From the NCBI RefSeq assembly GCF_000012965.1, contig NC_007575.1:868001-932000 (forward strand): a DNA stretch of 64,000 nucleotides, read 5' to 3'. How positions within the stretch are numbered: the first letter of the stretch is position 1; each line of letters starts with the position of its first letter. The notes beneath the pieces are model-generated. The model was not told the DNA's origin. It searched no databases and saw nothing but the letters and a program-made list of their open reading frames with translations. Source of the DNA: Sulfurimonas denitrificans DSM 1251. Lineage in GTDB: Bacteria; Campylobacterota; Campylobacteria; Campylobacterales; Sulfurimonadaceae. Position numbers and translations under genes: made by a program. Positions 5,766 through 55,312 of the stretch are shown here, piece after piece.

Positions 5766-6323
5766 CTATTTACCTAAAGTAATTCTTATATCACTATCTA
5801 TAAATTCCTCTTCTGTTGCACCTATATAATGGTTTATCAGTTTGGCATTTTTGTACATCGCTAATGTTGGAATAGGGTATCTATCACCTAGCTCTAACTC
5901 TTTTACTATAGCACTATTAAGACGGCGATTTTGATCTGAGTTTACTAAAATATAGTTAGCATTGTAAGTCTTTGCAAACTCTGCTAATTTCTCATTTTGA
6001 ATATTATCTTCAATCGTGATACCAATAATAATTAAATCATTTTTATATTTTTCTTGAAGTGAGCTGAGATGTTGTGCTGCGCCGCGACATGGTGGACACC
6101 AAGTTGCAAAAATATCAAAAATAACTATTTTGTCTTCAGCTCCAGCAAGTATAAAACCCTTATCAACTTTTTTAACTACATGTTGTTTGTTGTTTAGGTC
6201 TGTAAGAACATACTCGCTAGTGGAGATCATAGTATTTACCTCTTTTTTAGTTTTGTCTTCAGAACAGCCTTGAAAAAGAAGAGTCGCTATTATAGATAGA
6301 GTTAGAATCGATTTTTTAAACAT
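5766..6323 (-). CDS. TlpA/ResA-type thioredoxin lipoprotein
   Basis: 185 residues. Lipoprotein signal [12 protein letters not shown] puts the mature N-terminal Cys at residue 20. A thioredoxin fold follows with active site [10 protein letters not shown] and a cis-Pro region at [10 protein letters not shown]. Proteins of this type reduce periplasmic disulfides, often for cytochrome c maturation, anchored to the inner or outer membrane by lipid. It heads the ftsY operon. The substrate cannot be told from the sequence. Confidence 0.88.
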
Positions 6324-6387
6324 TTGCTTACCTTGGTTTCTTTTTTTTAAGTAAAATTGAGTGAAATTATATCCATAAAGATTTTAG

Positions 6388-6960
6388 ATGGCTCTTACAA
6401 AAGTAATTTTTAGACAAAATTGTCTAAATAAGATTAAAAATAGTTCAAAACACAACTGTTTATATAAAAATAAAAAAATCAGCAATCAACTAATTAAAGA
6501 GCTTAAAAAATTTAAAAATAAAAAAATACTATTTTTTATATCTCTGCCATTTGAAGCTGATACAGCAAAAATAATAAAACAAATTAGGAAAAAATATAAA
6601 ATATTTGTTCCATTTATGCAAGGCGAAAGTTTTAAGATGGTACCATTTAGGCTACCGCTGAAGAAGAAAAAATTTGGTATTTATGAAGCGGGAAATAGTT
6701 TAAGAGATATTAAAAATATAGATGTAGCTATAGTACCAGTTGTTGGTGTAGATGGAAATTTACAAAGAGTTGGTTTTGGAAAAGGAATGTATGATCGTTT
6801 CTTTGAAAAGTTAAAAAAGAGACCGTACACAATTTTTATACAGTCAGAATTCTGCTTTACAAAAGAGTTAATTTGTGATGATTATGACATTACGAGCGAT
6901 TTGATAATTACGCCAAATATTAGAGTACAAAACAGAAATATTGATAAAATGAGGAAATAG
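6388..6960 (+). CDS. 5-formyltetrahydrofolate cyclo-ligase
   Basis: 190 residues. It has the family's ATP-binding motif GFGKGMYDRFF near residue 133 and VAIVPVVGVDGNLQRVGFG upstream of it. The enzyme converts 5-formyl-THF to 5,10-methenyl-THF with ATP. The N-terminal third is very rich in Lys and Asn (AAA/AAT codons), as in homologues from this low-GC group. It ends one base before the rny start, so the two are translationally close. Confidence 0.92.
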   Translation: MALTKVIFRQNCLNKIKNSSKHNCLYKNKKISNQLIKELKKFKNKKILFFISLPFEADTAKIIKQIRKKYKIFVPFMQGESFKMVPFRLPLKKKKFGIYEAGNSLRDIKNIDVAIVPVVGVDGNLQRVGFGKGMYDRFFEKLKKRPYTIFIQSEFCFTKELICDDYDITSDLIITPNIRVQNRNIDKMRK

Positions 6961-6961
6961 A

Positions 6962-8530
6962 ATGTTAAACGAGATACTAAGTGGCAGCTCAGCAGCTGTT
7001 ATTAGTGGACTTGTTGGATTTTACATCTCTAAAAAAATTACTAATGCTAATTTTGATATATATGTCGAAAAAGCAAAAGCTCAAGCAGGTGCTATAGAAA
7101 ATGAAGCGCAACTGCTTCTATATAAAGCAAACATTAAGTCTCAAGAGATAGAGCAGGAAGCTACAAAATTGTATGAAAATGCAAAAGATAGAGCTAAGGC
7201 CGATCTCTCTTTAAGAGAAGAAGATGTTAATAGAAAAGAGCAAACCTTTAAACGTTATAAGCAAAATGAAGAGAGACGTCTGCAAGATGAAGTCTCTACT
7301 TTAAAAGCAAGACAAGTTGATTTAAAAAGAAATGAAAAATCTCTAAGCTCACTAAAAAAAAGATATGAAGATAAGATTGATGAAGCTTTAAATGCGATTG
7401 AGCATTGTGCTGGTATGACAAAAGAGGAAGCAACAAGAGTACTTCTGGAAAAAGTAGAAGAGAAGTCACGCTCTGAAATTGCACATGTAGTTAGGCGCTA
7501 TGAAAATGAAGCAAAAGTAGAAGCTAAAAAAAGAGCAAATTATATTTTAGCACAAGCTACAAGCCGCTTTGCAGGAGAGTTTGCAGCTGAGCGTCTTACA
7601 AATTTAGTGCATCTTAATGATGATGAGCTAAAGGGCAGAATTATTGGCAAAGAGGGTAGAAATATCAAAACTCTTGAGACACTTCTTGGTGTTGATATAA
7701 TCATCGATGACACTCCAAATGCGATTTTAGTGAGTAGTTTTAACCTTTATAGAAGAGCAATTGCTACAAAAACATTAGAGCTTTTAATACAAGATGGACG
7801 TATTCAGCCCGCACGCATAGAAGAGATATACAACAAAGTTTGTGAAGATTTTGAAGCCGATACACTAAGTGAAGGTGAAGAGATAGTGATTGACCTTGAT
7901 ATCGGTGTTATGCATCCAGAACTTGTAAAACTAATCGGGAAACTTCGCTATCGTGCTAGTTATGGACAAAACGCTCTCTCTCACACTTTGGAAGTTGCAC
8001 ATTTAGCTGGAATAATGGCTTCTGAAATGGGTGGAGATGCAAGACTTGCAAAAAGAGCGGGACTTTTACATGATATAGGTAAAGCACTTACACACGAACA
8101 TGAAGGCAGCCATGTTGATTTGGGTGTGCAAGTTTGTAATCGTTACAATGAACACAGTGTAGTAATAAATGCAATATATGCTCATCATGGACATGAAGAG
8201 ATTAACTCCATAGAGTGTGGCGCTGTTTGTGCTGCGGATGCTCTCTCTGCTGCTCGTCCAGGTGCTAGACGTGAGGTGCTTGAGAGTTTCTTAAAAAGAG
8301 TTACTGCTATAGAAGAGATAGCATCTCAACATAGCGGCGTTAAGCAAGCTTATGCCATAAATGCTGGCAGAGAGGTAAGAGTTATAGTAAATGCTTCTCT
8401 TATAAATGATGATGAATCTATACTCTTAGCTAAAGAGATAGCCAGTGAAATAGAGCATGGAGTTCAATACCCTGGCGAAATAAAGGTAAATGTTATTCGT
8501 GAGAGCAGGGCAGTAGAGTTTGCAAAATAA
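6962..8530 (+). CDS. rny: Ribonuclease Y
   Basis: 522 residues, normal length. An N-terminal membrane anchor (residues 8-24) is followed by a long charged coiled coil (about 30-200), a KH domain (GRIIGKEGRNIKTLE) and an HD domain with the metal motif LLHDIGKALTHEHEGSH. RNase Y is a membrane-tied endoribonuclease that starts mRNA decay. It converges with the CDF exporter gene, with 2 bases between the stops. Confidence 0.96.
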   Translation: MLNEILSGSSAAVISGLVGFYISKKITNANFDIYVEKAKAQAGAIENEAQLLLYKANIKSQEIEQEATKLYENAKDRAKADLSLREEDVNRKEQTFKRYKQNEERRLQDEVSTLKARQVDLKRNEKSLSSLKKRYEDKIDEALNAIEHCAGMTKEEATRVLLEKVEEKSRSEIAHVVRRYENEAKVEAKKRANYILAQATSRFAGEFAAERLTNLVHLNDDELKGRIIGKEGRNIKTLETLLGVDIIIDDTPNAILVSSFNLYRRAIATKTLELLIQDGRIQPARIEEIYNKVCEDFEADTLSEGEEIVIDLDIGVMHPELVKLIGKLRYRASYGQNALSHTLEVAHLAGIMASEMGGDARLAKRAGLLHDIGKALTHEHEGSHVDLGVQVCNRYNEHSVVINAIYAHHGHEEINSIECGAVCAADALSAARPGARREVLESFLKRVTAIEEIASQHSGVKQAYAINAGREVRVIVNASLINDDESILLAKEIASEIEHGVQYPGEIKVNVIRESRAVEFAK

Positions 8531-8532
8531 CT

Positions 8533-9426
8533 CTAATATAAATCTTCTACATCATTAATCTCTGAGTCATCATACGGGTCCATGTGCATTAATACATGGA
8601 CCTTTTTATCAGAAAAAAGTTTTTTTATCTTGTCTTCTAATTTATCTGAAACAAGGTGCGCATCATATAGTGATATGCTGACATTAAAGACAAGATGAAC
8701 TGATACAAAAATATGTGAGCCAGAGACTCTTGTTCTTAGATGATGATAATTTGTTACGGTTTTATTTTCTTCTATAATAGTCTTTACTTTACCTATATCC
8801 TCTTCACTAAGAGCTGCATCAAGCAACATTAGCATTCCCTCTTTTATAATCGGTATTGCAGAGTAAATCATATAGATGCTAATTGCTATTCCAAGAAGCG
8901 GGTCTATAATTTGCTCGGCTGTAACAGAGACAAGACCAAGAGCAAGTAAAACTGCACCATTTGAAAATATATCTGTCTTATAGTGAAGAGCGTCGGCTTT
9001 TATAACCATATTTCCTGTTTTTTTTGCAACCCTGTTTAGAAAAATAACAAGAAAAGTTGTAATTATTAAAGAGATAAACATCACTAAAATACTAACACCA
9101 ACAAACTCTAGCTCTTGCGGACGAGCAATTTTATTAAGAGCTTCATATAGTATAAAAAGTGCCGAAAATGATATGATTGTTCCCTCTATAACTGCAGCAA
9201 GAGGCTCCATTTTGTTACGACCATAATTAAAGAGAGTGTCAGGGTCTTTTTCTGCGTTGTTAAGAGCAAAATAGTTAAACAAGGAGACGGTCAAATCAAG
9301 TATTGAATCAATTGCAGAAGCTAAAACAGCAATAGAACCGCTGAGTATTCCAATGCTCATCTTTATAACTACAAGAATCATAGCTACTGATGTTGATACG
9401 ACGGTTGCCTTTTTTTCTATTGTCAT
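8533..9426 (-). CDS. Cation diffusion facilitator (CDF) metal exporter
   Basis: About 297 residues with six predicted helices and a C-terminal cytoplasmic domain. Metal-site motifs are SAIDSILDLTVSLFNYFAL in helix 2 and ADALHYKTDIFSNG in helix 5, as in FieF/YiiP-type proton antiporters for Zn, Fe or Cd. The frame opens at 9453, but GGAG precedes the ATG at 9426 and a TATAAT box (9453-9458) overlaps the longer N-terminus, so 9426 is preferred. The C-terminus is Asp-rich. Metal specificity cannot be read from the sequence. Confidence 0.9.
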   Translation of the reverse strand: MTIEKKATVVSTSVAMILVVIKMSIGILSGSIAVLASAIDSILDLTVSLFNYFALNNAEKDPDTLFNYGRNKMEPLAAVIEGTIISFSALFILYEALNKIARPQELEFVGVSILVMFISLIITTFLVIFLNRVAKKTGNMVIKADALHYKTDIFSNGAVLLALGLVSVTAEQIIDPLLGIAISIYMIYSAIPIIKEGMLMLLDAALSEEDIGKVKTIIEENKTVTNYHHLRTRVSGSHIFVSVHLVFNVSISLYDAHLVSDKLEDKIKKLFSDKKVHVLMHMDPYDDSEINDVEDLY

Positions 9427-10377: not shown

Positions 10378-10868
10378 AAATATCAAAAGATAAAAAAGAG
10401 ACTCTCCAAGATGATGAAGAGTTAGAGATAAACGAGTATGTGATAGATGATATTTTGTTAAAAACACATGAAAAAATAAATCAAGATTTGTGTGGAGAGA
10501 TAGAAAATCTTGAACTTGGATTTGTAAAATTAAAACTAGTCACTACTCATGATATGATTGCTGATTCTATGGGCTTGATACATGGTGGATTTATCTTTAG
10601 TGCGGCTGATTATGCTGCTATGGCTGCTGTAAATGAGAGAAATGTCGTTTTAGTTGCAAGTGATTGTCAATTTTTATCTCCTGTAAAGTTTGGCGATATT
10701 GTAAATTTTACAGCAAAAGTACGTCATAAAGAGGGTAGAAAAAGAAATATTCATGTAACTGGGCATGTTTTAGATATCAAAGTTTTTGATGGTGAATTTA
10801 AAACAGTCGTAACAGAGAGACATGTTTTAAAACTTAAATTAAGCGGTGAAGAGAGTGATGAAGAGTAG
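10374..10868 (+). CDS. PaaI-like hotdog-fold thioesterase
   Basis: 164 residues. [20 protein letters not shown] is the hotdog helix with the HGG motif. Later strands ([18 protein letters not shown]) follow the acyl-CoA thioesterase pattern. The first 30 residues are charged and low-complexity. It starts with GTG overlapping the cmoB stop (GTGA), so it is translationally coupled. The acyl substrate is unknown. Its stop codon lies in a 25-base inverted repeat shared with the converging MBL gene. Confidence 0.82.
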
Positions 10869-10890
10869 CAAATCTTTTAAAGATTTGCTA
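10866..10890. terminator. Bidirectional hairpin over converging stop codons
   Basis: TAGCAAATCTTT and AAAGATTTGCTA form a perfect 12-base inverted repeat around a single T. It includes the thioesterase stop (10866-10868) and the last codons of the MBL gene. There is no long T-run, so it may be an RNA-end stabiliser or a weak terminator for both strands. Confidence 0.45.
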
Positions 10891-11470
10891 TCCAGTAATC
10901 GCTATACAACTGCTCTTGCTTTATAGTTGTAGTTCCGCCATGCCCTGGATATATAGTCTTATCGTAAGCTATTTTTTTAAACTTCTCTAAAGAGTCTTTC
11001 ATCTGCGTAGGTGAAGAGTATGGAAAATCTGTTCTTCCAATAGAGCGTTCAAATATAAAGTCCCCGCTAAACATAGCATCACCTATCTCTATGGTTGAGC
11101 ACCCTGGGGTGTGTCCTGGAAAATGACGAAACTTAACTTTAACACCGTTAAAATCAAACTCTTGATTTGCTTCTACTTCAATATCAGCATATGATGGTGG
11201 AAGAGAGGGCATCCATGAACTATCTTTTAATAGCATAAGATCTTCTTTAGGAGTATATAGAGGAATTTTTAGCCTCTTTTGCAACTCTGCATTGCTCCAT
11301 ACGTGGTCAAAGTGCCCATGAGTGTTGAGTATAGCAACAGGGTTTGTTACGTTTTGTATTACCCACTCAGTCGCACCCATTCCAGGGTCTATAATAAAAT
11401 CCATATTATTAACATGTACTATGTAACAGTTAGTTTGGTAATCACCCATTGGTTGAACTTTTATTTTCAT
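10877..11470 (-). CDS. MBL-fold metallo-hydrolase (glyoxalase II-like)
   Basis: 197 residues. The metal-binding signature NTHGHFDHVWS (HxHxDH), FPGHTPGCSTIEIG, the Asp in MFSGDFIFE and the final His in YPGHGG form the full metallo-beta-lactamase site. Length and motifs fit single-domain hydroxyacylglutathione-hydrolase-like or persulfide-dioxygenase-like proteins. The longer C-terminal domain of true GloB is absent, so I do not assign the substrate. It converges on the thioesterase gene. Confidence 0.87.
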   Translation of the reverse strand: MKIKVQPMGDYQTNCYIVHVNNMDFIIDPGMGATEWVIQNVTNPVAILNTHGHFDHVWSNAELQKRLKIPLYTPKEDLMLLKDSSWMPSLPPSYADIEVEANQEFDFNGVKVKFRHFPGHTPGCSTIEIGDAMFSGDFIFERSIGRTDFPYSSPTQMKDSLEKFKKIAYDKTIYPGHGGTTTIKQEQLYSDYWIANL

Positions 11471-11563
11471 ATACTACTCTTTATATTTTTGTAAAATTGT
11501 AACCTTAAAAGCATAAAGATAGTCTCATTTATCATAATTTACATATCATTACAAAAACTTTGA

Positions 11564-11569
11564 TATAAT
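11564..11569 (+). promoter_or_regulatory. -10 box for nadE
   Basis: TATAAT 31 bases before the nadE ATG, preceded by an A/T-rich stretch. AAAGG just upstream of the ATG is the ribosome site. Confidence 0.5.
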
Positions 11570-11600
11570 CTTATTTGTTAAAGTTTTTTAAAGGTTAGCA

Positions 11601-12374
11601 ATGGAAAAATATGCACCTATTGCAGAGCAATTGCAACATTTTTTATATGAAGAAGTTCATAAAACTGGGATTAAAAACGTTGTTTTAGGTCTTAGTGGCG
11701 GTATTGATTCAGCTGTTGTGGCACTACTTGCTTCAAGAGTTTTTGGAGATAATCTACTTTGTGTAAAAATGCCATCTCACTACTCATCACAAAGTTCTCT
11801 TGATGATGCAGATGAGTTCTCTTTAGCTTTTAATCTTCGCTCTATCACTAGCTCGATTGAGCCGATGTTAAAAGCTTATGAAGAGGTAAATCCAGATATG
11901 GATAATCTAAGAAGAGGCAATCTATCTGCACGTCTTAGAATGAGCACTTTGTTTGATTTATCTGCAAAACATAACGCTTTAGTTTTAGGAACAAGCAATA
12001 AAAGTGAGTTAATGTTAGGGTATGGAACACTTTATGGTGATTTAGCATGTGCATTAAATCCTATTGGAGATCTTTATAAGAGTGAAGTGTATGAGTTGGC
12101 AGAGTATTTGAATGTGACAAATAGCATTATGAAAAAAGCTCCCTCAGCAGATTTGTGGGCTGGACAGAGTGATGAAGCTGATTTGGGCTACACATACTCT
12201 CAGCTTGATAAGGTGCTTAAACTCTATATTGAAGAGCAGCTAAGTAGAGAGAAAATTTTAGAGATGGGATATGATGCTAAGATGCTCGATATGATAATAG
12301 AGAGAAATCTTCGCAATCAATTTAAGGGCAAGATGCCACTTATCGCTAAATTACGTCAAAATATTAGACTATAA
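11601..12374 (+). CDS. nadE: NAD+ synthase (ammonia-dependent type)
   Basis: 257 residues. The PP-loop GLSGGIDSAVVALL near residue 30 binds ATP. Further motifs are RMSTLFDLSA, VLGTSNKSELMLGYGTLYGD and PSADLWAGQSDEADLG, all typical of NadE, which amidates deamido-NAD. No glutaminase domain is present, so it should use free ammonia. It is followed after 9 bases by the DegT aminotransferase gene and starts the nadE to argB run. Confidence 0.95.
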   Translation: MEKYAPIAEQLQHFLYEEVHKTGIKNVVLGLSGGIDSAVVALLASRVFGDNLLCVKMPSHYSSQSSLDDADEFSLAFNLRSITSSIEPMLKAYEEVNPDMDNLRRGNLSARLRMSTLFDLSAKHNALVLGTSNKSELMLGYGTLYGDLACALNPIGDLYKSEVYELAEYLNVTNSIMKKAPSADLWAGQSDEADLGYTYSQLDKVLKLYIEEQLSREKILEMGYDAKMLDMIIERNLRNQFKGKMPLIAKLRQNIRL

Positions 12375-12383
12375 GGATTAATA

Positions 12384-13505
12384 ATGAAAGTTTTGTTTTG
12401 TAAATATGAGAGCAGCAGAGAAGCACACTCAAATGTAAGTGATGTTTTAGATGGTGAAGATATAGACCAAGTACAAGAGCTTGAAGATGAGTTTAAATCA
12501 TATATCGGTGCAGATTACGCATTAGCTACTTCACACGGTACTTCCGCACTTCATTTAGCTATGTTAGCACTTGATTTAAAGCGTGGAGATAAGGTAGTTT
12601 GCTCTGTAAATGCGCATCCAAAAGTTCCAGAGGTTGTTCGTCACTTTGATGCTGAACCTGTTTTTATAGATATTGATCCAGATACATTTAATATCAATCT
12701 TGATAAATTAGAGGCATATTTAGAGGACAACAGAGCTAAAAAACTAAAAGCTGTAATTGCTACACATGTGGCTGGACAGTGTAGTGATTTGGATAGATTA
12801 TACTCAATGGGAACTATCTATGATGTAAAAATCGTAGAAGATGCAAGTGAAGCACTCGGAGCCACATACAATGGCAAAAGAGTCGGAGCAACGGGTGCTG
12901 ATATTACATGTTTTAACTTCTCTTCTCATCTTAAAAAAGATGTCTGCAATGGCGGTATGCTTGTTTCAAACTCAAAAGAGATAGTTGAGCGTGCAAAACT
13001 TCTTAGCGCACATGCTATGGGGAGAGATGAAGAGTCACTAGAGTATATTTATGATGTTACAGACATAGGATTTGATTACTCTATGAGCCAGCTAGATGCT
13101 GCTTATATTAGAGCAAAAGTTCAAGAACATGATAAAAATCTCCAAAGAGTGAACGAGATAGCTCAAATGTATAATAAAGCTCTTGATGGAGTAGCTCATA
13201 TAGCTATTCCTAAAGCTATTAACAAAGAGCACCCTTACTCTCTTTACATTATAAAAGTAGATAAAAATAGAGACTCTTTTGCACTAGAGTTAAAGAAACA
13301 TGGTGTTGAGGTTGGTCTTCACTATATTCCTCTTCATTTTTTAACTTACTACAAACATAAGTACTCTTTAAAAGTAAATAATTTTCCAGTGGCACTTACA
13401 ACGTATCAGCAAGTTATGTCACTTCCTATATATGCAAGTATGAACGATAAAGAGGTTAAGTACGTTATCGATAAAGTAAAAGCTGTAGCTCTAACAAGAG
13501 TATAA
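12384..13505 (+). CDS. DegT/DnrJ/EryC1 family PLP aminotransferase
   Basis: 373 residues. It has the fold-type I aminotransferase layout: TSHGTSALHLAMLAL (phosphate-binding turn), VEDASEALGATYNG (PLP-binding Asp) and CFNFSSHLKKDVCNGGML with the Schiff-base Lys. The canonical GEGG after the Lys reads CNGG here. Relatives act on nucleotide-linked keto-sugars to make amino sugars for surface glycans or protein glycosylation. The neighbours (nadE, lpxK) do not fix the substrate, though lpxK hints at envelope work. Confidence 0.88.
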   Translation: MKVLFCKYESSREAHSNVSDVLDGEDIDQVQELEDEFKSYIGADYALATSHGTSALHLAMLALDLKRGDKVVCSVNAHPKVPEVVRHFDAEPVFIDIDPDTFNINLDKLEAYLEDNRAKKLKAVIATHVAGQCSDLDRLYSMGTIYDVKIVEDASEALGATYNGKRVGATGADITCFNFSSHLKKDVCNGGMLVSNSKEIVERAKLLSAHAMGRDEESLEYIYDVTDIGFDYSMSQLDAAYIRAKVQEHDKNLQRVNEIAQMYNKALDGVAHIAIPKAINKEHPYSLYIIKVDKNRDSFALELKKHGVEVGLHYIPLHFLTYYKHKYSLKVNNFPVALTTYQQVMSLPIYASMNDKEVKYVIDKVKAVALTRV

Positions 13506-53473: not shown

Positions 53474-54589
53474 CTACATCCAAGTTAAAAACTCTATGGT
53501 AAAAGTAGCACCATTTTTAGAATTTGCCGCAGTTATAACTCCGCCGTTTTTCTCAACTAAGATTTTTGATAGATAAAGACCTAAATGCAACTCATTGTTC
53601 ATATCGTTGTCGTATGAAAATATATTATCAAAAGATTCTCCCCTGATTCCACCACCGTTATCACTGATGGATACTTTCTTATTATTAACAGAGATATGTA
53701 TCTCTGGGTTTATTGTATCTCTGAGTTTAAAAATCTCTCTTGCATTATTTAAAATAGTAAATACTACTTGAGAGAACTCATTTTGATTTCCAAAAACAGT
53801 ATCTCTCTCATGTGAGATAATATAAATTTTTATGTCATCAAAGTAGAAAGTTCCCTCAACAATTGTGAGAATCTCTAATATGGTATCGGAGAGAGAGAAC
53901 TCTTTTGTGTCGTATGAGGGTTTATAGAAATTTTGAAAGGTATCTATTGTTTCAGACATAAACTCTAGTATATCTTTTGACTTTTTTAACGACTCTAAAA
54001 AGTCATCTTTGTCAAAAGAGTCCAAAGAGAGTATTTTTTGTCTGTTTTTTTTAGTTATAGATAAAAGAGATGCAAGAGGTTGCTTCCATTGATATGAGAT
54101 ATGCATCAAAAGTTCACCAAGAGCAGCTTGTTTAGATTGTTGATACATCATCTGCTCTTTAAATTTGTTCTTTTGTATCTCTTCTTGAACTCTGCACTCT
54201 AAATTTTTCTCATAAGCCCTCAATGCAAGATGTGTAGAAACTCTTGAGAGAAGTTCATCTGGATGAAATGGTTTACTGATATAGTCAACGCCTCCCGCAT
54301 CAAACCCTTTTTGAATATCCTCTTGTGTATGTTTAGAACTTAAAAAAATAATTGGAATATGGTATGTTTTTGGAGAATTTTTTAAAGTTTTGCAAACTTC
54401 ACAACCATCACTCTTTAGCATTGTGATATTTAAGAGAATTAAATCTATCTCATTTTCACCAAATAGTATCTCAATTGCATCTTTATCATCAGAAGCGCTT
54501 AGCAAGTTGTATTTTTGAAGCAATTTATTCAAAGTGCCAATATTTTCTTCTTTGTCATCTACTATTAATATTGTCTGTTTTTCATCCAT
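53474..54589 (-). CDS. Receiver plus histidine-kinase protein with both phospho-acceptors substituted
   Basis: 371 residues from the ATG at 54589. Residues 5-120 are a receiver (ILIVDDKEEN, FLSSKH, YISKPF), but the acceptor position reads LILLNITML, Asn54 instead of Asp. A coiled linker leads to an H-box-like helix, LLMHISYQWKQPLASLL, in which the normal His before QW-x-QPL is Tyr166. The ATP domain is largely intact: N box TILNNAREIF, G1 ISDNGGGI, and HLGLYLSKIL. It may be a regulatory pseudokinase rather than a phospho-relay. The frame is open to 54826, but that extension overlaps the divergent methyltransferase gene. Confidence 0.87.
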   Translation of the reverse strand: MDEKQTILIVDDKEENIGTLNKLLQKYNLLSASDDKDAIEILFGENEIDLILLNITMLKSDGCEVCKTLKNSPKTYHIPIIFLSSKHTQEDIQKGFDAGGVDYISKPFHPDELLSRVSTHLALRAYEKNLECRVQEEIQKNKFKEQMMYQQSKQAALGELLMHISYQWKQPLASLLSITKKNRQKILSLDSFDKDDFLESLKKSKDILEFMSETIDTFQNFYKPSYDTKEFSLSDTILEILTIVEGTFYFDDIKIYIISHERDTVFGNQNEFSQVVFTILNNAREIFKLRDTINPEIHISVNNKKVSISDNGGGIRGESFDNIFSYDNDMNNELHLGLYLSKILVEKNGGVITAANSKNGATFTIEFLTWM

Positions 54590-54667
54590 AAAAAAACCCC
54601 TACACTCTAATTGAAATATTAAATTATATCTTGTGAAACATAAAAAATAGATGGTATTATTTGCACT

Positions 54668-55312
54668 ATGAAAATATGTAAAATTTGTAGTAACAAAACT
54701 ACTAAAATTGTAGATACAAAAAGTTCTAAAGAGTATTATAAATGCGCTACATGTAATTATATAGCGCTTGATGAGAGATTCTACGTCGATGAAGTGCGCC
54801 AGAGGGCTCATTATGATAAGCATCATAATACACTTGAGTCCCTTGGTTATGTAAAAATGTTTGAAGATTTAGTTTGTGAGTTTGTTCTGCCATATAGAGA
54901 AGAGATAAAAACTTCATTAGATTTTGGATGTGGAGAGGGCGAGGTTTTACCCATTGTTTTAGAGAGAGAAGGCATCTTTTGTGATAGATATGATTTGCAC
55001 TATTTTCCTAAAAAAATATATAAAGACAAAGAGTATGACTTAATTCTCTCAACAGAAGTTTTTGAGCATTTACAAAACCCTCTTGAGCTTTTTGCTGAAC
55101 TACTCTTACATGTAAGGCAAGGTGGTTATCTTCTGCTTATGAGTGCATTTCATCCTAGTAGTGATGAGGAGTTTTTAAAGTGGTGGTATATTAGAGATAT
55201 CACTCATATAGGTTTTTTTGATTTGAATACACTCTCTTACCTGTCAGAGAAGTTTGAACTTGAGATAGTTAAGCATAACTTTAAGAATAGTATCCTATTT
55301 AAAAAAAAGTGA
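54668..55312 (+). CDS. SAM-dependent methyltransferase with N-terminal zinc ribbon
   Basis: 214 residues. A Cys4 ribbon (CKIC near residue 4, CATC near residue 26) precedes a class I methyltransferase fold: SLDFGCGEGEVLPIVL (motif I), YDLILSTEVFEHLQNPLEL and GGYLLLMSAFH. The domain combination resembles methyltransferases with an N-terminal zinc finger of unknown substrate. It is divergent from the degenerate receiver-kinase, sharing a gap of about 80 bases. Confidence 0.8.
   Translation: MKICKICSNKTTKIVDTKSSKEYYKCATCNYIALDERFYVDEVRQRAHYDKHHNTLESLGYVKMFEDLVCEFVLPYREEIKTSLDFGCGEGEVLPIVLEREGIFCDRYDLHYFPKKIYKDKEYDLILSTEVFEHLQNPLELFAELLLHVRQGGYLLLMSAFHPSSDEEFLKWWYIRDITHIGFFDLNTLSYLSEKFELEIVKHNFKNSILFKKK

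Follow-up and report, generated by a model that had tools for sequence, protein, structure and literature searches.

A receiver-histidine kinase protein of Sulfurimonas denitrificans lacking both phospho-acceptors: a candidate pseudokinase from a family in which acceptor losses track partner loss

Introduction

A gene within a 64,000-nucleotide stretch of the Sulfurimonas denitrificans genome (the window; the host genome is a single contig of 2,201,561 bases) encodes a protein in which a receiver domain is followed by a histidine kinase core, and in which neither domain possesses its phospho-acceptor residue. What has become of such a protein: is it an accident of one strain or one sequence read, a gene in decay, or a protein retained for a role that does not require phosphate transfer? 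To our knowledge, few natural pseudo-histidine kinases have been characterised, and literature searches returned no paper on this S. denitrificans gene. We examined the protein, its orthologues and their genomic surroundings in order to address this question.

Results

The gene (hereafter ‘T’) is an open frame of 371 amino acids on the minus strand (53474–54589) with no internal stop. Its product comprises a receiver domain (residues 5–120; 54230–54577; Pfam Response_reg at 7–117), a long signalling helix that connects the receiver to the DHp region (residues 121–148; 54146–54229; part of a single predicted helix spanning residues 110–187), a DHp region bearing a QWKQPL motif (residues 149–230; 53900–54145; placed by alignments, predicted structure and Foldseek) and a CA (ATPase) domain (residues 256–367; 53489–53824; Pfam HATPase_c at 268–367), all encoded on the minus strand. 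The original prediction assigned the core to the HWE type, a label that is unsupported because neither an HWE nor a HisKA model in Pfam matches the window protein, L034, L032 or L040; the window protein has Response_reg and HATPase_c hits only. The predicted fold (mean pLDDT 84, pTM 0.49) displays a single long helix that extends out of the receiver and into the DHp region, with uncertain domain placement given the pTM of 0.49. The top full-length PDB match to this model in Foldseek is the Rec-HK protein LvrB (8vc9), and DivL (4q20) is among the top DHp-CA matches. The arrangement of a receiver followed by a DHp-CA core, with no transmembrane sensor, is that of a Rec-HK; the two phospho-acceptors of that class are replaced by Asn54 and Tyr166, and T shares with the pseudo-histidine kinases a kinase fold without the acceptor His.

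Rereading of the sequence and alignment of orthologues bore out both substitutions. The codon at 54428–54430 (minus strand) is AAT, placing Asn54 (LILLNITML) where the receiver's phospho-acceptor Asp is expected, and the codon at 54092–54094 (minus strand) is TAT, placing Tyr166 (HISYQWKQPL) at the position of the phospho-acceptor His. Each differs from the nearest full-length relative by a single transition (GAT to AAT at codon 54 and CAT to TAT at codon 166). The accompanying claims, that the other receiver residues and the ATP site are intact, held only in part. The receiver retains D11, D12, S84 and K106, but carries M56T and P58L, the latter (codon CTA, 54416–54418, minus strand) replacing the nearly invariant Pro that follows the acceptor. 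The CA domain retains N282, D310, G312, G314 and G337, but in the window copy His335 replaces the first of the G2-box glycines, a position that hardly varies among T orthologues (G335H; codon CAT, 53585–53587, minus strand). At positions that are invariant in intact relatives, the window copy is changed at 10 of 62 in the receiver, 11 of 42 in the DHp region and 5 of 53 in the CA domain. The description of the frame as otherwise well kept was therefore too strong, considering G335H, P58L and the changes in the DHp region.

Among 135 Sulfurimonas genomes we identified, besides the window protein, 27 full or nearly full T orthologues (45–69% identity) and two truncated ones; a contig scan of the named genome collection yielded two close orthologues, the other matches being distant receivers. 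The nearest full-length relative (69% identical) has Asp54 and His166, as do most of the 27, so the window's substitutions are lineage-specific; yet acceptor loss recurs in four other lineages. Residue 166 is Tyr in the window copy, L040 and L041, Phe in L038 and L059, and Asp in L032 and L039. Asp54 is held by all full-length sequences of the genus except the window copy (Asn) and L047 (Ala), and the first acid of the receiver pocket (D11) is Asn in L032, L039 and L040. A tree of the genus sequences, built without columns 11, 54 and 166, requires five losses of the acceptor His (to Y, Y, Y, F and D) and four losses of a receiver acid or acceptor. We rejected a read error or strain mutation, since independent relatives display the same kinds of loss, and also rejected acceptor absence as a trait of the whole family, since most orthologues, including those outside the genus, keep the acceptors. 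The five best out-of-genus orthologues (L282 to L286) all have the acceptor His (HIAHQWKQPL) and, where readable, the VDD and LLDI motifs with the acceptor Asp, and the intact state is therefore ancestral. No T orthologue, with or without acceptors, departs from Q167, W168, Q170 or P171.

Loss of the acceptor His is far rarer in other kinases with this motif. The DNA pattern for HQWxQP occurs at 1208 sites in the 135 genomes. The search for His-less counterparts covered codons with A, G or T as first base at the His position, and the plausible matches, a majority whose middle codon is seen in the motif, were read in frame. On this basis 2 of ~1188 other QWxQP kinases (L183 and L187) are His-less, versus 7 of 29 in the T family (5 independent events), a difference beyond chance. 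The remaining matches read in frame outside the T family proved to be out-of-frame chance occurrences or non-kinase sequence. All 11 of the other kinases in the window genome with a QWxQP motif have the His. Published survey rates are 0.9% for HisKA domains without His and 2.0% for receivers without Asp (PMC12632262). Of the two exceptions, L187 (G125:C136, 1400–2900) is an independent His-less kinase, a Rec-HK outside the T family in which Tyr precedes QWKQPL (LLTYQWKQPL) and the receiver keeps its Asp. The other, L183 (G054:C235), has Tyr for His in a QWRQPI kinase whose core is partly missing, apparently including the N box, and looks like a decaying kinase gene.

In many relatives T overlaps a gene on either side, in the order S-T-R, where S encodes a periplasmic-sensor kinase (NMT1, SBP_bac_3, HisKA and HATPase domains) and R an OmpR-type response regulator; a REC-GGDEF gene often lies divergently beside them. 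R directly adjoins T for all five of the out-of-genus orthologues. Both S and R are missing from the T locus in the window, L031, L032, L039, L040 and L042. Genome-wide searches of the window genome for homologues gave best matches of 38% for R and 33% for S, each belonging to another locus, and relocation of the two genes within that genome was rejected since neither was found. The closest R relative (38%) adjoins a sensor gene (L008 and L106, C1:262561–266376 of the window genome) that encodes periplasmic binding domains fused to a QW-type core (ISHQWREPL), and this pair is a fused version of the S-T-R logic. Its candidacy as a replacement partner for T is not supported, because the other lineages in which both sites are dead (G020, G124 and G037) have no R relative above ~31%.

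Several further features of these loci were recorded. In eleven relatives, T and a methyltransferase gene are separated by a gene for a membrane protein of ~375–440 amino acids. The window lacks this gene (54590–54668), and its T locus has thus lost more than S and R. S has an in-frame stop in one relative (L064 in G031, 6045–8816) and is split into two pieces in another (L077 in G116, 10635–13353), each beside an intact T, which is possibly the start of operon loss. Elsewhere in the window genome, a receiver-like match (L019, C1:1601871–1602296) contains one TGA and one TAA and is a possible pseudogene.

Across the family, acceptor losses track the disappearance of the neighbouring S and R genes. 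Where R is present and S missing (L047), only Asp54 is lost; where S is present and R missing (L038), only His166 is lost; and where neither partner remains (the window, L032, L039 and L040), both kinds of site are lost. Intact operons have intact sites, with the exception of L041 (G004; locus L070), a counterexample in which S and R adjoin T and the receiver Asp is intact, but His166 is Tyr, with L157P close by. Six orthologues (L031, L042, L049, L050, L052 and L053) are missing both partners and keep both Asp and His, which fits loss of the partners first. All four receiver losses fall on branches without S (22–31% of tree length; P 0.002–0.009), and four of five His losses fall on branches without R (24–32% of tree length; P 0.013–0.037), under a simple model in which losses fall by branch length and with few events. 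A phylogenetic independent-pairs test ran in the expected direction, with too few events to reach significance.

Two clades, each probably descended from an acceptor-less ancestor, have retained intact frames. For the sister pair L032 and L039, both without acceptors, omega is 0.14 overall (NG86), the receiver standing at 0.27, the DHp region at 0.11 and the CA domain at 0.09; the two share His to Asp and D11N, so their common ancestor probably lost both sites. For L038 and L059 (both Phe166) omega is 0.07 (NG86). YN00 estimates for the two pairs are 0.17 (L032 and L039) and 0.14 (L038 and L059). The DHp and CA regions of these acceptor-less pairs have omega of 0.06–0.11 with no stops. Pairs of intact relatives give about 0.05–0.11. 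A neutral simulation using rough branch distances predicted 3–7 stops per branch for L038 and L032 and ~10 for the window copy (L001), and none is seen. The CA domains of L032 and L039 depart at 0 of 53 positions that are invariant in intact relatives; the receiver of L040 departs at 17 of 62. For both L039 and L040, invariant residues have changed far more often in the receiver than in the core (P 0.0004 each). The kinase core is thus under purifying selection in two acceptor-less clades, and constraint on a receiver is relaxed where its sensor is gone.

Erosion has gone further in the window copy than in these sister clades. Truncation of L058, its closest relative, before residue 181 leaves no readable acceptor; omega between the two is 0.14 over residues 181–371, which is not a clean measure of selection after the loss. 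Because of that greater erosion, extension of the selection seen in the sister clades to the window copy is likely but not proven. The T gene is probably not a pseudogene. As to the earlier suggestion of a selected pseudokinase, it agrees well with the two acceptor-less clades, with their intact frames and omega of ~0.07–0.14, and would hold for the window copy by extension.

Discussion

We favour, with moderate confidence, a reading in which T is an orphaned relay component that has probably turned into a non-catalytic pseudokinase, similar in logic to DivL. The ancestor of T would have been a receiver-controlled histidine kinase (a LvrB-like Rec-DHp-CA protein) acting between S and R, and from this arrangement we infer that S phosphorylated the T receiver, thereby switching the kinase core and leading to phosphorylation of R. 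In the S. denitrificans lineage S and R were lost; with no phosphate donor and no acceptor protein, D54 and H166 would no longer have been held (D54N and H166Y), and phosphotransfer through T would be dead. The frame of T is still intact and, by analogy with sister lineages that have no acceptors and hold their DHp-CA core under strong purifying selection, the folded core most likely persists as a pseudokinase. As a dimer it would attach to another kinase, or to a response regulator, and modulate the bound protein without phosphate transfer, as DivL does.

The same loss of partners could instead mark T as a useless remnant of S-T-R in slow decay toward a pseudogene, with the acceptor losses as the first visible hits. 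Catalytic residues have been struck in the window copy (D54N, P58L, H166Y and G335H) and the receiver is relaxed in lineages without S, as such decay would produce; but the 371-residue frame is intact, omega between L001 and L058 is 0.14, and the acceptor-less sister pairs hold their DHp and CA regions at omega 0.06–0.11 without stops, with no departure at the 53 invariant CA positions of L032 and L039. Given that record, we consider decay unlikely, although deserving of some weight. The intact Q-W-Q-P motif suggests a further alternative, a kinase-dead phosphatase in which the His-less core still dephosphorylates a response regulator via Gln170 of QWKQPL. In favour of such a role, even dead copies have kept Gln170 and the other motif residues (Q167, W168 and P171) invariant, and HisKA proteins do not need the acceptor His to act as phosphatases (PMC12632262). 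The cognate R, however, is missing in four of the five His-less lineages, the idea that His-less kinases generally serve as phosphatases is not supported in the same review (PMC12632262), and DivL is without such activity (PMC4211667); we therefore regard this role as improbable.

The proposal that His163 (54101–54103, minus strand), three residues upstream of position 166, has taken over phosphorylation as a displaced acceptor did not survive comparison with orthologues. His163 is present and lies on the same predicted helix; it is, however, a conserved family residue, nearly invariant alongside His166 throughout the family and in the out-of-genus orthologues, and the two coexist in other families of the order as well. 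As it is present with or without His166, it must have another role than that of a replacement acceptor. The receiver, moreover, is also without its acceptor. We give this possibility very little credence.

The pseudokinase reading might extend beyond the window. We suggest, as a tentative generalisation that is doubtful at present, that Sulfurimonas Rec-HKs become pseudokinases by a repeated, ordered route: partners would be lost before the matching site (the receiver site after S, the His after R), and the DHp-CA core would be recruited to a new phosphate-independent role common to the orphaned lineages. Within one orthologous family there are living intermediates, with the operon intact, S lost, R lost or both lost, and the matching active-site residue is gone in several of each class. 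This makes it possible to test, from genomes and in a cultured, non-pathogenic genus, which events came first and which way phosphate flowed in the ancestral relay.

Of known systems, the DivL pseudo-histidine kinase of Caulobacter crescentus is alike in having a Tyr (Tyr550) for the acceptor His and in keeping the DHp-CA fold. DivL binds ATP poorly, has no kinase or phosphatase activity and works by binding DivK~P (PMC4211667). T has neither the PAS-DHp-CA architecture of DivL nor orthology to it: the two share about 18–19% identity, a distant DHp-CA similarity only, and input to DivL comes through PAS domains, with DivK~P and CckA as known partners, whereas the input of T is a receiver without its Asp. 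LvrB, a Leptospira protein that is the prototype Rec-HK and the best full-length structural match, shares the Rec-DHp-CA architecture; its receiver is phosphorylated by an upstream kinase, the CA domains are released, and the core is controlled through a long helix (PMC13269768). Unlike T, LvrB is active and keeps both acceptors (D56 and H161), and it works with a partner, LvrA, and an effector, LvrC, that are unlike S and R. A ChrS variant of Corynebacterium glutamicum illustrates that a non-catalytic kinase can still matter, possibly by pairing with another kinase (PMC9491836), but it arose by a laboratory frameshift in the CA domain, keeps its His and represents no natural recurrent loss. 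Pseudo-receivers (PsRs, such as FrzS) likewise are receivers without the acceptor Asp, and the characterised PsR regulators are mostly orphans (PMC12632262); they are usually described in response regulators, whereas the T protein has additionally lost the kinase His. T is a candidate pseudo-histidine kinase that is also without its receiver acceptor, in a family where acceptors have disappeared repeatedly in the wake of their partner genes.
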